A model generated the notes under the pieces. That model saw only the letters and a program-made list of their open reading frames with translations. It was not told where the DNA came from and did no database searches. Both the position numbers and the translations under genes were made by a program. Below, in pieces: positions 52,143-60,490 of a stretch of 64,000 nt of DNA (positions are counted from its first letter, which is position 1; each line of letters starts with the position of its first letter). The stretch is from Pholiota molesta (taxonomy: Eukaryota > Basidiomycota > Agaricomycetes > Agaricales > Strophariaceae): assembly GCA_014925825.1 (NCBI GenBank), contig JACGCK010000052.1, positions 186,001-250,000 of the forward strand. The letters run 5' to 3'.

Positions 52143-55100
52143 GTGTCCTCTAGTCGATCGAGATGACTGTGATTAAGCGCCTAAAATAAGAAGAATCGAA
52201 TCGATACGTAAGAAACTTGCTGTGATCATCTGGCCCAAATTTCAGACGCCGTGAGGTGCCCCCCGTTTCGGGCCTTTTTGTCTCACCCCTTACCCTGGGC
52301 GTTTATCAGCACACCTTTGCTCTCCCCGTCGTCATCCCTAAGCGCTCAAAAAACGGATGGCTGTTCGGCGCCTGATTAGGCGCTGACTGCTCATCCAGCG
52401 GAGAGGATGGGCGGATACACGAAAAATTCGCGCTGGCCGCGGTTTATCGTCGCCATCTGTTTTCGGACCTTAATCCGACACACAGTAAAATTTCCTCCTC
52501 GTGTTGTCGATGCTTCCTCCACACCCTTTCTTCGCCTCTCACGTTCCCTGCAGCGTGACAAGCGCAGCCTCTCCCTGTTCTTGTCCGTTCTCAGCGCCCA
52601 CTGTACTGCCTTTTGTCGCCAGCAACAATGGCTGGGGATGGCAAGCGCAACATGATCACACGCTCCAAGAAACCGAGGTGATGCATTGATTGTAAATATC
52701 AACACCGGGAGCAAACTGCCACTTTTGGCGCCAATCGGCGCTTGAAGCATGTCACCGACCCGGCCTTCCTCTGTCACTCAGCCCACGCCAATACACGACT
52801 GCTATCTCGAGGATAGGCCGGATGCGACGATCTTTGCGTCCATAGGAGGGCTGTCGCCCACCAAATGTACCCCAACTCTGAGCATCGTCCATCTAACGCC
52901 ATGCGTTAACAATGTGCCGCTATATGACAGACTGGGAGCCTGTGGAATACAGCGTCAGATGTGCCCATTTCCGACAGACAGCCGTCATCGATGACTAAAA
53001 GGGAACACACTGATATGGATTTTACTTCTCATATGTAATGTCACGTCAAATCGAAATACGTGCGCACACAATGAGGGGAGAGCGGTAAATAGAACGATGC
53101 GACAGTGCGGCCGTGTGAATGATATATGGCCAGAAGTTTTGATAAAAGATGGATCTAAATAAGGGATCAAAAACGTCAAACAGGCCAGGAGGATTAAGAG
53201 CTAAAGAGAACTAGATAACATGAAATTATCACAACTGTTGCAGTACCCATCGAATTATGGCGCCAACATGGCGCCTATTGCACCCCGTAGTGGAAATGCC
53301 ATGGCGCTACGACGGGATGGAGACGCTGGCGCTTCTCTAAAATAGGACACGATGCCGAGCCGCTAAGGCGGAAGGATGCCCGGATCCGAAAGACTGGCAC
53401 AGAACACCCCCGCAGCATTGGCGCCAATACCTTAGACGCCGGTCCCCGGACACCGCTAACCGGCATCACGGAACGCGCGGCAAAATTATAACCCGATGTA
53501 CTCCTATACCACACTCCGCCTGGTCAGCTGCCAGCGGCGCTTCCATACGTACAACACCACGCACTTCCCCCGTTCCACGTACGCTGACTAGGCTCTGCCC
53601 AAGCAAGCAAGCTGCTAGCATGGTTCATGGAACCGAAGCACGGTGATGCTCGGACGGCCCAGATGGCCCCATGCCTTGCCTTCCTCGCACACCACTCTCC
53701 CTGACGGGGTGTGTCCGCTCACGGCAGAATTCATATACGAGCCTGAACAGGCGTTTGGGCGCCCGTGCAACCTTGTTACTTCATATATAGCGATGGAGGA
53801 ACGATGCATATTACATTCTTGCTTCATACATCACGCCTCGCTATCTCAACCGCCGAGGGGCCGCAGCCTTTATTCTTACCATACCTGACAGACGTGGGTG
53901 ACGACGTCGGCGCTTGTTTGGCAATGGACCGTGACTGCCGTAGCAGCAACCAGAGCGCAACTTTCATTATATTTAGCTTCGTTCTTTCCGGTCATGCTTA
54001 CATATATTCAAGATAGCTACCTGCGTCCATGCGCCTTCAATAGATCACGCATTCATTTTCAGCACGCATTCGGTAAACGGAAAAGCTTCTGATATGTTGT
54101 ATTGCGGTCAGGATAGCCTATCATCGTCGTTTGGTCGCGTGGACATCGAACGTGTTTTGCAGGAATGAATAGGCCGTAACGCGTTCATATTCGTATCCCA
54201 TAATAGGGGATACTTTGTGCCAATCAAACTTTGAGCGTGAGGAAAAATTAAATCGCGCGCGTCTAATTTGGTCTGTAATCTAAATCCAAGACCAGCCCAG
54301 CACCGGACCTCTACGTTGATTTGAAAATAACAGTAACCTCTTCCCATATAAACAGAGCCTAAGCTCTTCCTTCCGAGTCATCGCCTATATTTACGCTTCA
54401 CCTGAACCCTCTGCCCCACTCGAACTCATTCCGGGAAGTTAGAAGTATTGCTAACCCGTGCCCCCCATCTCCCGTGTTCTGGAAACCGGCTGCAGTGCGG
54501 GCATACCATGATACTAGATGATACTTCATAGCCTGCCCATGATCAATCGCATCTCACACTGTGACGTCCATTTGCGTTCTCCATTTCCAGCGCAGTTTCT
54601 CGTCTCGTCCTTTTCACATCAATAGAAGCGCCGGTTATTAACGGTTGCTGACATACCACATGTATTCGTGGAATAAGGTGGAGTGAGTGAGCCCACCACC
54701 GCACCGCATAGGTGCGTGCTGAACGGACCCCAAACCTTCCTCGTCTCCACCATGATGATAAGCGTAGCATCTGTTAATGATAATATGTACTTGCTCTGTA
54801 AGTAGAGTACACCAATATACCAGCTATCGTATACATCATACCATGAGTCTGTGTTGGAAGGAGCTCATCATGCCTCCGCACAGCCTCCTCCAGCTTTCAC
54901 ACTGTATTCAACGCGGGCGCTAGTAGACGATAATAATAGACACCACGATCTACCCTTGTTTGATGGCCATGCTTCGGAACTCCCACGCGCACAGCCTCCT
55001 CTAAAATTATTAATATCAGAACGACAAGTTCGCACGACGCACGCACGTCCCCATCTGCCGCCACCATTGTCACTGCAGCACGGTCTAGCATGGTCTAGCA

Positions 55101-57236
55101 TGCTCGGTGTGCAATCATATATTAACCACATAAGTACATCTCCAGGCCGGGTAGGTCTCGCCCCATTCGACACTGACTTGTCCACCATCAAAGCCAGTCT
55201 CGTCGTCTGAGGATCTCACAGCTGTATAGCCTGCCAGAGCAGGTCAGAGCCTGCCACACCCGCCGTCCGAATCTCCGCCGCGTTCAGGCTCATGCCCGCG
55301 ATGTGCATTTCGCAGTGTAACATAGTACATACACACCAGATGATGTGCTGCTAGGCCTTGCTAGGCAGACAGGCATACATACCTCGAGCGTGCTGGCCTA
55401 AACATTTACACTAGGCGAGTGTTCACGGGCTTCGTTCACCGCGTTTCGCATTATGTCTTGGGCAAGTCTTGGGTATGGATCTGGTATGGATCATGGATGC
55501 TTGCCATGGAGGTTTCGCGTACACACCACACCCCAACGGCGCTGTTTAATCCCGACCAGGACCAGCAGGAATGGTTCCAGGTGATTCCAGAACGCGGTGC
55601 ACTCCCATGGGCTTGCGCAAGCGCGAATTTTTATTCCTCTCTTTCTTTCTCTGGATCTGCATCTGCAACGTTGCAATAAAGCCTCTCACGCCGTAAGGAC
55701 GAGCTTACTTCGTTTGGGAGGGACAGCCCCATGCGTGCGTTATTATTTCCAGAACTTATTATTTTCAGAACATCTATCTGTCGAACCTTCTCGGGCGGCG
55801 CTCAGTGAGATATTCTGGAAGTATAAAGAAGACGTTTGACAGAGCGAAGTACCTAGTCCAATTCTCACTCCTAGTATCACTTGGGCGCCGTATTCGTGGG
55901 AGATTCCTGTCTGCTGGGCGCTGTGATATTCTGTGCATCTGCATTTTGTGATGTCGGCGTGCGTGTGCGGTATTCCTGATATTCGGATTACGGTGCATTT
56001 TAACGCAGAAGCTATATCTGATATACATTAGAGATTCTGGAGTACTAGTGTAAGGCATCCTCTCTTTTCAATTATCGATCAAAAAAGCTAGAAAGTAAGC
56101 CAAATAGTGATCAAATGGATGAGATCAGGAATCTTGACCTTAGTGGTTGAAGAAGTTCAGCCTCAATGCCAGACGGGTCGTATTCAAATGACTACCAAAC
56201 AGATTGTTGAAGACTATTTCTGCATTTACAATCACATGTCCATTGCATTCCGACGGTGCATGCTATACAATGAACTTTGAACCGTCTAATATTCTTTTAT
56301 CTGGTGTTCTAGTCGCTGTAATCCTGTTACTGAACGTGTGGCTCCACGCCTCAAACACTTCAAACACCTAAAAACAATAATGTTACATTGCCTTTGGAAT
56401 AATATGCGAATACGCTCAGAATCTATGAAGACTTATATCTAAGTAACCACATTATGGGGTTTGTAGAGAATATCTAAAACTCCGTCGAACTCACTTTGTG
56501 GGTATTTCCTATCGATTAGTCGTTCAGAAGGAGTCATAACTTGAAGTCGTTGTCGCAAACAAATGCCGAGGACGCTCAGCCTTTTCAGTAATAAACGACT
56601 TTACTTAGTAGCATAGTAAGGTCATAATAGCGTTAGCGAGGACCGTCGCGAAGCGCGTCAGACTTATACAGCGTAACGAGACAGCAAGAGTAAAGTTCTC
56701 TCTCATCTCAGTTGTTTGGGTAACAAACGACTGTGAATGAATCAATGCGGGTATACTAATTGAAGTATATGTAGTAAAATTTATCATGGAGAATAAAAAG
56801 GAGAACTCTACATATACGCTAAACTGGAGGGCGGCAACTCTCACTAAGAACGACAAAAAAAATCAAGCGCAAGAGTGCGCACTAACAAAATGTTTACTTA
56901 CTGATTGTTCTGCGGCCTGCGAGGCGCAAGTCGTGACGCTGAGGCCAAGGGTATGTAGCTGAGGTGATACCTTTACATCGTCATGCGATACACTTTCAAA
57001 TTGGAAAAGGAGGTAGCCATTCAAATATTCAAATATCACTATCAGCTCGAGGAAGAATACGCCCATGGCGTGATAACAAAGCGCGTGCGTGAGCAGGGTC
57101 GAAAAAAAATGGGCAAATAATGAAAATTGTGGAGCCCGCTTGCAAGTGAATATCTGCAAGTACATACTTATGTACATATTGGCCTATCGATTTGAAGGAC
57201 GCTGTAAACTCTATTCACCTGACCTTGCATACTCAC
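52143..57236. other. Five-kilobase gene-poor region
   Basis: No complete gene is recognised. It contains a possible orphan promoter and first exon at about 52495-52678, several palindromic GGCGCC sites (52367-52385, 53260-53276), and many short frames without family signatures, for example 54851-55210 on + and 55774-56058 on -. TTAAGCGCCTA is at 52173-52183. Confidence 0.45.
52495..52678 (+). other. Possible orphan promoter and first coding exon
   Basis: A CT-rich stretch of about 130 bases leads to GCAACAATGGCT, a good fungal start context, with the ATG at 52628. The frame MAGDGKRNMITRSKKPR runs 16-17 codons to CCGAG|GTGATG, a possible donor, and then hits a stop. No matching downstream exon is recognised in the next kilobase. 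It looks like the 5' end of a gene whose remainder was lost or moved. Confidence 0.3.
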
Positions 57237-57245
57237 TATACCCTG
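57237..57245 (+). repeat. Target-site duplication, left (TATACCCTG)
   Basis: The nine bases TATACCCTG directly precede the left inverted repeat and recur directly after the right one at 58180-58188. Confidence 0.88.
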
Positions 57246-58179
57246 CAGGCTCCTAAACCATCCTCTCGTGACGAAAATCATTAATCTAATCTAAAAACAA
57301 ACACAACACAACACAACTTGAGATGAAGATTCTCGTCAGAGAGGCTGGCGTAACTTGGACTCGGTGATCGCGGGCATACCAAGTAACGCGTAACATTGGC
57401 GTAACATAAGACGAACTTTCAATAAACCAGCCTCCTTATATTCCCGTTTGTCAGCACATAAGTCACCACTCCGTCACAGAGTTGATCAGAGCAACTGCCC
57501 TCCCACTTGCTTTGTGCATGTAGCCTCATCCTATTCTTTTGATTATTGGGCTGATGTACCAATGAGGACTAGGAAGCTGAGAAAAAATAGAGACTTTCAA
57601 TCAAAAATGGTGCAGCATAGACTTTGTCCATGACAGCTCATTGTCACACTCACCTCAACCTGTCTCTGCCATCTGTTCTGGTCAAATTTTGTTTGGTTTG
57701 TCCTTTCTAACTGACCACAGAATTTAATGGAAGCTGAATAGCAGTAAATAAAAGTGAAGAAGGCCCCAAATGCAATTCAATTGAATTAACAAGTTTGCAG
57801 AGAGCTCAAAATCACCAATAGAGATGTTAGAATAAAATAAATTCACTCTTTTGACTTTACTTCAACTTCAAATCCAAATTCTATTGCCAAATTTGAATTG
57901 ACTAGCCCTCAGCAAGCCCTCAGAGCTGCCATAAACTAACCCAGAGGCTAAAGATGAACTCAACTCCGTGCTGACAAACGGGAATATAAGGAGGCTGGTT
58001 TATTGAAAGTTCGTCTTATGTTACGCCAATGTTACGCGTTACTTGGTATGCCCGCGATCACCGAGTCCAAGTTACGCCAGCCTCTCTGACGAGAATCTTC
58101 ATCTCAAGTTGTGTTGTGTTGTGTTTGTTTTTAGATTAGATTAATGATTTTCGTCACGAGAGGATGGTTTAGGAGCCTG
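57246..58179. mobile_element. Non-autonomous MULE-like element with identical 211-bp TIRs
   Basis: The left arm 57246-57456 and the right arm 57969-58179 are perfect reverse complements over all 211 bases by direct reading, beginning CAGGCTCCTAAACCATCC and ending TTCCCGTTTGTCAGCA. A 512-base AT-rich centre without a transposase separates them, for a total of 934 bases. A nine-base target-site duplication TATACCCTG flanks the element. Long TIRs plus a nine-base duplication are the hallmark of Mutator-like elements. A hAT-like element (eight-base duplication, CAGG terminus) is the main alternative, but hAT inverted repeats are normally short. Identity of the arms implies a very recent insertion or repair between arms. 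Mobility would need a transposase elsewhere in the genome. Confidence 0.93.
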
Positions 58180-58188
58180 TATACCCTG
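58180..58188 (+). repeat. Target-site duplication, right (TATACCCTG)
   Basis: Second copy of the nine-base duplication, followed by CAGTAATATT. Confidence 0.88.
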
Positions 58189-58438
58189 CAGTAATATTCC
58201 TCTTGCTATTCGGTTATGAAGTCAGCTGAATTCATTCCGACGTCGAGCCGAACAAGGCCAAATTCCTGCACCGCGCCCGCTACAATCCTCCTGTCATCCG
58301 CTCGGTTAGAATTACTTACCGCTAGGTAGATATAAATTTCGCCAGATGAAAGAAACTTTGGCTATCCATCGTTCTTTCTTCACTGGAGCCCACTAATACT
58401 ACTCCAAACCCTCGTATACCGGACCCAGAACCAGAACG

Positions 58439-58991
58439 ATGAAGCTTTCCTTCGCAGTGTTCGCTAGCGTTGCTTATGCCATTGGTGCCAGTCGCGCTAT
58501 AACGTTGCCAATATTGCCAGGAGTTCCAGTCGAAGGAACTTATGCTGAGCTATACAACCTCTGTGAAAGTAAAGGGTCTCAATCTGTTCGTTTCCCGTTC
58601 ATTCAGATCAAATTCGAAATATTTTGCTAACATTGCAATAATCGCAGTACGTTGGGGTTCTCTACGCAGACGGCACCAAAAAGACCTTCAACTTTGGGGA
58701 ATGCTATCCCTACGCGTACGGTCCCGTATTAGCGCAGCAGGCTGTCTTTTGCAAGGGGGCGACTTGCGAGAACAACCCGTATGTCGTCCATTCGAGTCAA
58801 GTCGTACACGTATACTGACAACAATTGGGTTGCCATATAGAAACCCTGATTGCACTGGCGGTGCCATCCCACCTGTCCCTGTAGTTGTACCCCCGCTCAC
58901 GACGCTGATCAACGCGGCAGATTTTGTGCAGCTGATAGGACAAGGTGCTACGTGCCAGCCGAATATTCTGTCGGGAAACCTGTGGAATTGA
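58439..58991 (+). CDS. Small secreted cysteine-containing protein
   Basis: Three exons (58439-58585, 58648-58778, 58841-58991) join in frame to 142 residues. The N-terminus MKLSFAVFASVAYAIGASRA is a typical signal peptide: a positive residue, a hydrophobic core and small residues before a probable cleavage near residue 18-20. The mature part has six cysteines (LCESK, GECYP, VFCKG, ATCEN, PDCTGG, ATCQP), consistent with three disulfides, and a VPVVVPPLTTLINAADFV segment. The first intron uses GTTCGT as donor, a little unusual; an alternative donor GTAAAG lies nearby but gives the wrong phase. Basidiomycetes secrete many such small proteins, some of them effectors or wall proteins. No family was recognised. 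The gene sits only 250 bases right of the MULE-like element, so its promoter may be affected by that insertion. Confidence 0.72.
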
Positions 58992-59705
58992 GTGGATGAA
59001 CTGGTTAATTTACCTGACTTTTGCCTGACTGCGTATGGATTCGAAAAATCGTAGTGACTGTAATTCAATCCAGTGAGAGTTATGTAAATGATATATCCCA
59101 TCATGATCAGATTTCGGATATGTAGACGCGCTCAATAGCCTTTGATTATATCTTGAAGCGGTAAAGGAAATCCTGAATTCTCCTCCCATTTATTCCGCAC
59201 AATCGTTCGAACTCTCTAATACTATTTGCTGACAATGCTCGTAGGCTACAACCTGGATAATATGCACCCTTCTACGACTATCTATAGTGAGCGAGCCACA
59301 AGACAAGAAGCCTGATTCAAAGTCAGACACACAAGCACGCCGCCCCAACTCTCCCAAAGCGGTATCATCGCAATCCTCCACCTAGCATCAGGCCATAGTG
59401 ATGCTCCCATCGAACACATTTCCTTTCAACACACTCTAAAACAACGCGCTTTGTTCAAAACATCCTTTGAGGGTATACAAACTCCAACGCGTCGAAGTCG
59501 CGCCACCGGACAGGCCCTGCGCAGTGGCTCCGCCAGAACGCGAGGCGGGCCCGCATTGATGTTAGCTTGTGGCCTTGCGAAAGCCACTCCGGCCGTCCCT
59601 TTCTCTTATTCTGCTTAAAAGGCGGAGAAACGTTCCAAATTAGTTTGGAGATCTTGACCTTCTTTCTGCTCACATACCAGCATCGCCGACAGCAATAAGC
59701 CACCG
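58992..59705. other. Intergenic, nothing recognised
   Basis: About 700 bases between two + strand genes. An 82-codon minus frame at 59455-59703 has no recognisable family. Confidence 0.4.
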
Positions 59706-60490
59706 ATGCCGGCGTATATGGAATCGCCGCTGGATGTTACCGTACGTCCTGTCTTCCTTGCATCGCTTCTAACATACCCATTCTGATTATGTACGTTGCT
59801 CAGCACCCCTCCTGGTACCGCACGGACAGTGGCACCGCGCGCACCATCCACAGCGGCGCCCCCTCCCCGCGGAGCACGACAACCCATACCCCCTCCACCA
59901 CCCACTCGCGCTCCCGGCCCAGCTCGCCGGCCCCGTCGCGGAAATCGAGCGGGCGCTACGGACAAGAAGCACCGTCGTCGCTCAGCGTCTCCGCGGCATC
60001 GAGCGCCCGGCGCGCGCGTGGCCCGCGGCCGCCTCCATCGAAGTCGACGCCAGACACGCTCGACACCCGCACCGCACCCGCTCTCCTGCAGGACAGGAGA
60101 CCGACCGCGGGCGAAGTCAGGCATTTAGCGACACCCGCGCACGCCAGTGCCAGGGATGCACGCGTGGCGACGATCTCGCAGAGCCAACCCAGGCGCTCCG
60201 CGCAGGCTGCGCGTTCTCGGCCGCACCCACACATGCGCCCAATCCCCGCCGCCGCCGGCGAGCACGACACAGAACCCCCGACGCGGAGGCGCGCCAGGGC
60301 GTCCGCGCCGCACTTGCCCCACGACGCGCGGCGGGACCACGCGCCGCCGCCCGTCCAGGACGGCGCCGACATCTGGCAGAAAGGGGACTCGTGGTACAGG
60401 GCTGCGCCGCCGAAACCGCCTGGGAAGGGGAGACAGGGAAGAGGGTGGTATTTCGCTGTTATCGGCATGTTGGGAGCTGGGAAGGCGTGA
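59706..60490 (+). CDS. GC-rich, disordered basic protein (hypothetical)
   Basis: Two exons (59706-59741 and 59804-60490), with a 62-base GTACGT...CTCAG intron, give 240 residues. The translation is rich in Pro, Ser, Arg and Ala and almost certainly disordered. A SWYR motif occurs at both ends (HPSWYRTDSGTA and KGDSWYRAAPPKPP), and the C-terminus ends WYFAVIGMLGAGKA. GC content is far above that of the neighbours, which also opens long frames on the minus strand (59615-60124 and 59956-60579). The + strand was preferred because of the short first exon with good splice signals and the repeated SWYR motif. No function can be assigned, and it may not be a real gene. Confidence 0.35.

Follow-up and report, generated by a model that had tools for sequence, protein, structure and literature searches.

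Mutator-like elements (MULEs) have given rise to miniature inverted-repeat transposable elements (MITEs) with long arms, 9-bp target duplications and a non-coding centre, KolobokH elements duplicate a TTAA target, and AcademH, reportedly recognized by Kojima (2020, Mob DNA 11:15) as a lineage of the Academ superfamily, is not known to carry the XPG-type nuclease that is a feature of AcademX. AcademH is described as having a helicase and target duplications of 9 or 10 bp (PMC10045372), and Ling and Cordaux (2010, PMC3004938) document that, within a bacterial insertion sequence (IS), sequence can be copied from one arm to the other. Here, we analyse an element of 934 bp in the genome of the basidiomycete Pholiota molesta (assembly GCA_014925825.1, 65.6 Mb in 625 contigs) that lies within a stretch of 64,000 nucleotides, hereinafter the window (contig JACGCK010000052.1, positions 186,001 to 250,000 of the forward strand; all coordinates are those of the window unless another locus is named). 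Loci and elements are denoted by L-numbers, and contigs of the same genome by C-numbers.

The element resembles MULE MITEs in its long arms, 9-bp duplication and non-coding centre, but the coding relatives scanned here lack a MULE domain. With AcademH as described in the two sources consulted (PMC10045372, PMC10799480), it shares coding relatives that carry a helicase gene, duplications of 9 bp, ends in the form of inverted repeats and a basidiomycete host, the difference being that the window element itself encodes nothing and the helicase resides in the relatives. The likeness to the bacterial IS case lies in the copying of arm onto arm within one element; there, the arms are 23 bp long, with one mismatch, and the copying is tied to inversion, whereas here the arms are 202-213 bp long, about 30 sites are involved in each comparison and the host is a fungus (PMC3004938). 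Arm co-evolution of this kind was not seen for AcademH in the literature searched, where only the bacterial IS case is relevant. Very probably, the window element is a non-autonomous (MITE-like) member of a 9-bp-duplicating, AcademH-type group of DNA transposons, with arms that are homogenised within the element.

Concerted change of the arms

The window element and five siblings (L010-L014) comprise the window subfamily. The sibling interiors align with the window interior over almost their full length and are 18.3-19.8% divergent from it, the arms are about 15% divergent between the window element and the siblings, and the palindrome boundary is found at the same place in all six members. 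Within the six elements, the left and right arms differ at only 0, 1, 1, 2, 2 and 3 positions, with two additional gaps in L014. Comparison of the window element with each sibling reveals 29-31 positions that changed in both arms, no shared arm-specific changes and 1-3 other sites; if the two arms changed independently, about 1.5 coinciding sites in 30 would be expected (binomial probability 5e-40, assuming equal base changes and independent sites). Insertions and deletions follow the same pattern: a 10-base gap in L013 and L014 and a one-base insertion in L011 and L012 are present in both arms of each carrier. In the tree of the arms, the two arms of the same element pair for the window element, L010, L011 and L013, L012 is not resolved, and those of L014 do not pair. 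The closer pairs (L013/L014, L045/L047 and L011/L012) show 2 both-arm, 1-3 other and 0-1 shared arm-specific changes.

Because 29-31 differences from each sibling occur in both arms and none is a shared arm-specific change, the arms of this subfamily have changed in concert since the siblings diverged. The simplest explanation is that sequence was copied from one arm to its partner; cut-and-paste transposition does not re-copy the arms. The perfect arms had initially been taken to imply very recent movement, an interpretation that is not supported: the arms change in concert and, therefore, those of the window element differ at 0 of 212 positions despite the 18-20% divergence of the sibling interiors. 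Perfect arms thus probably reflect homogenisation, not the date of insertion, and arm identity is no clock.

An alternative to continual conversion is a single late replacement of a whole arm in each lineage, by inverted duplication of one end, which would produce the same both-arm pattern in one event per lineage. This is a serious but rather unlikely scenario, given that the palindrome boundary is common to all six members and that, in the closer pairs, the two both-arm changes beside other sites are better compatible with repeated local copying. That the arms are identical simply owing to a very recent birth or move, without any arm-to-arm copying, would fit the absence of differences between the window arms and the lack of substitutions between the C467 copy and that on C335; it is nevertheless highly improbable because the interior homologous to the siblings at 18-20% divergence, together with the shared palindrome end, indicates that the palindrome predates the split, only about 1.5 of 30 chance matches are expected under independent change, the C335 tract is free of substitutions in the flank as well and so does not date the insertion, and arms of about 15% divergence are predicted within the siblings, where 0-3 differences were found. 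Least credible of all is selection for base-pairing arms, in an RNA or single-stranded DNA hairpin, with compensatory changes: full pairing of the arms is possible, and an internal inverted motif is present in most of them, but the identity is exact rather than pairing-tolerant (there are no G-T-type mismatches in the window arms), the 10-base gap is common to the two arms in L013 and likewise in L014, and a mismatch of 4-20% between the arms is tolerated in groups B1 and E.

Under homogenisation within the element, the life cycle can be envisaged as follows. A DUF6589 transposase with an RNase-H/DDE-like fold and a RecQ-like helicase would be supplied in trans by relatives of about 6 kb, would bind motifs in the long arms and excise the element, which would be joined to a 9-bp staggered cut at the target. 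One arm would be copied onto the other by intra-element gene conversion or template switching; candidate routes are repair by the host, template switching and a step of transposition in which the helicase takes part. We tentatively raise a stronger version, itself doubtful, in which active maintenance of long-arm identity is a step in the life cycle of AcademH-type elements themselves, for example, by arm pairing and copying assisted by the RecQ-like helicase during transposition.

Coding relatives and classification

Full-length relatives of about 6 kb that share the termini encode a RecQ-like helicase and a DUF6589 protein. In a fold comparison, the best matches of the DUF6589 model are the P-element and Hermes transposases, with modest Z scores; the rank of MULE-like folds in this list is not evidence. 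The genome contains 36 DUF6589 clusters, of which 31 have an adjacent RecQ-like helicase gene on the opposite strand; as judged by eye, both tail-to-tail and head-to-head orders occur. No paper found in the literature searched names DUF6589. An XPG-type nuclease was not found in the 13 open reading frame (ORF) translations of L021, L035 and L036 or in one database protein (P0001). The probable assignment to AcademH is based on the helicase, which is present in the coding relatives, and on the duplication length (exactly 9 bp at 30 of 31 distinct sites and 8 bp at one); DUF6589, the model of which resembles DDE transposases, is the candidate for an Academ-type DDE transposase. KolobokH was rejected, none of the duplications being TTAA.

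The first-pass annotation considered the element MULE-like and proposed an arm search for full-length relatives with a MULE transposase. The 6-kb coding relatives were indeed found but carry DUF6589 and the RecQ-like helicase, and a scan of 13 ORFs and one database protein from these relatives revealed no MULE domain (PF10551). PF10551 has 8 matches in the genome, 7 of these above the cut-off, and, among the matches listed, none is on a contig with an arm or terminal match, so that a MULE partner identified via PF10551 was rejected. Hence a MULE-derived MITE moved by a Mutator-like transposase, although long arms and duplications of about 9 bp are what such an element would have, is very doubtful, and, judging from these domain and terminus comparisons, the window element is probably not a MULE. 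The type implied by the annotation, a non-autonomous element with terminal inverted repeats and a 9-bp duplication in a genome that also harbours larger coding relatives, is retained.

The active autonomous partner that was postulated is supported only at the level of the family: the best coding relative, L021, shows a 75% match to the window arm over 157 bases, and the window interior has no match in L021, L035, L036 or L037.

Insertion at the window site

Contig C104 carries a homologous locus that has the same flanks and one target copy, changed at one base, but lacks the element; the joined flanks of the window element (150 + 150 bases) are identical to this locus in 277 of 302 columns. 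Because this locus has the flanks, no element and one target copy, the window element is a genuine insertion into a single TATACCCTG-like target. The flank homology extends over kilobases, unevenly: on the left side, substitutions amount to 2.95% in the region 52.1-56.1 kb, to 17.1% within a segment at 56.2-56.7 kb and to 14.3% in the 277 bases adjoining the element, and on the right side to 7.7% across 3.9 kb.

The same insertion, at the same site, is present in another homologous contig, C335. Its copy shows no substitutions relative to the window over 54.0-60.09 kb, including the element, with gaps of single-base scale only, whereas the kilobase bins further left are 1.3-6.5% divergent. Because the flanking part of the tract is as free of substitutions as the element, the C335 copy is scarcely informative on the age of the insertion; dating by this copy was rejected, there being no independent clock when element and flank alike have zero substitutions. 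The substitution-free tract itself (window 54000-60090 against the last 6 kb of C335, L055-L056), lying beside homology diverged by 1.3-6.5%, could reflect recent conversion, recombination or an assembly effect.

The family across the genome

Copies of the arm elsewhere, the lack of which would have spoken against recent transposition, do exist: the arm search identified 36 places, and the terminal pattern of the family, with at most 3 mismatches, occurs at 48 places in the genome and at none for the reversed control. Chance is excluded because of this difference and the empty homologous C104 locus. A scan for end pairs, with at most 2 mismatches allowed at 9 bp, covered 36 sources (35 loci and the window) and recovered paired ends with target copies in 33 of these, 32 with an exact 9-bp and one with an exact 8-bp duplication; no end pair with target copies was found for L024, L049 and L050. 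Removal of L009 (same site) and L051 (duplicate) leaves the 31 distinct insertion sites. At L048, the target copies are present and the right arm is not alignable.

For 10 of 16 tested elements from these 31 sites, an empty locus with one target copy was identified elsewhere in the genome; the single copy differs by one base for the window element and L021. The joined flanks match the empty locus at 97-98% for L013 (721 bases), L022 (993) and L025 (588), at 92-94% for L011, L023, L026 and L038, and at about 86% for L021 and L014; with matches this low, some of the empty loci may be repeats rather than alleles. A clean empty site was not obtained for the other six, with none listed for L010, L012, L035 and L047, and with L043 and L045 located in repeats, but the search scored 40 of 108 candidates, so a miss does not equal absence. 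The flanks of L045 (C378) match many places, often in plus/minus pairs with a spacing of about 0.5-1 kb (C400, C622, C612, C593, C3, C124 and others), and L045 appears to be inserted in an arm of another family of inverted-repeat elements. The 30 exact 9-bp targets have a weakly G-rich start and a C-rich end, possibly a symmetric preference. Two larger non-autonomous copies, L038 (1001-5152) and L016 (501-2558), have interiors enlarged by about 3.0 kb and 1.1 kb, respectively, of sequence unshared with their siblings and possibly representing nested insertions or captured DNA; the L016 interior has 53% GC.

Concerted change of the arms is not universal: little of it is evident in groups B1, E and F, and arm mismatch in B1 and E reaches 4-20%. 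In L015-L017 and in L037/L044, the arms group by side in the tree, with 5-7 and 20 shared arm-specific sites, respectively, against 0-1 concerted; L035/L036 have 39 other sites versus 7 concerted, L018/L020 have 2 of each, and L022/L023/L026 hardly vary. Group D (L038, L041, L042 and L046) shows 0-2 concerted, 1 shared and 1-2 other sites; its arms differ between elements at 0-3 of 176 positions and its interiors by 10-12% (three pairs compared), a pattern that might stem from selection on the arms or from exchange between elements.

The interiors of L022, L023 and L026 differ by 0.9-1.7%, and those of L025 and L026 by 0.3% over the 323 matched bases. All four elements have empty loci, and their arms are nearest to those of the coding element L021 (3 of 149 positions differ for L022). 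Thus, the family probably moved in the recent past, the recent copies belonging to a subfamily other than that of the window element.

Motifs and layout of the window element

Among 31 elements as oriented, 21 have the motif CCAGCCT close to the tip of the left arm and 23 close to that of the right arm (position 13 or 14); the complement, AGGCTGG, occurs at 96-139 in 28 left and 26 right arms, and both are missing from L037 and L044. The interiors of 26 of the 31 elements lack CCAGCCT, L039, which has no interior, being counted among these, and in the window element the tip copy is altered in both arms. To judge from this distribution, the motif pair is a candidate binding site.

The features of the window element are collected in Table 1. 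The perfect arms and the flanking 9-bp duplication described in the first-pass annotation were confirmed, with the arm length corrected from 211 to 212 and the spacer from 512 to 510, and so was the absence of a transposase from the centre, the longest listed ORF inside the element being 61 amino acids (ATG, GTG or TTG starts, at least 40 amino acids). The secreted-protein gene placed about 250 bases downstream agrees with an ATG located 251 bases beyond the second target copy and a signal-peptide-like stretch; the insertion might affect the promoter of this gene, as the annotation suggested.

Table 1. Features of the element and its surroundings in the window
Feature	Position	Strand	Remarks
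Left 9-bp target site duplication, TATACCCTG	57237..57245	.	one-base-different single copy at the empty C104 locus
Element, 934 bp	57246..58179		
Left terminal inverted repeat, 212 bp	57246..57457	+	212/212 (100%) complementary to the right arm; 81-85% to the arms of the 5 siblings
Subterminal AGGCTGG, complement of the CCAGCCT tip motif of most relatives	57342..57348	+	candidate protein-binding site
CCAGCCT motif further inward, left arm	57427..57433	+	
Non-coding interior, 510 bp	57458..57967	.	homologous over nearly the full length to the 5 sibling interiors, 80-82% at ungapped positions
Right terminal inverted repeat, 212 bp	57968..58179	-	complementary to the left arm
Right 9-bp target site duplication, TATACCCTG	58180..58188	.	
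Start of the neighbouring gene, first open stretch; outside the element	58439..58628	+	N-terminus signal-peptide-like, judged by eye

Implications

Here, perfect arms coexist with an interior that differs by almost 20% from those of the closest siblings, so that the identity of inverted repeats is an unreliable clock for elements of this kind. Through shared termini, target duplications, empty sites and fold, DUF6589, an uncharacterised fungal domain, is tied to a helicase-bearing DNA transposon, which provides annotators with a handle on a large protein family. If AcademH-type elements do actively maintain their arms, each subfamily would drift as a matched pair of arms.
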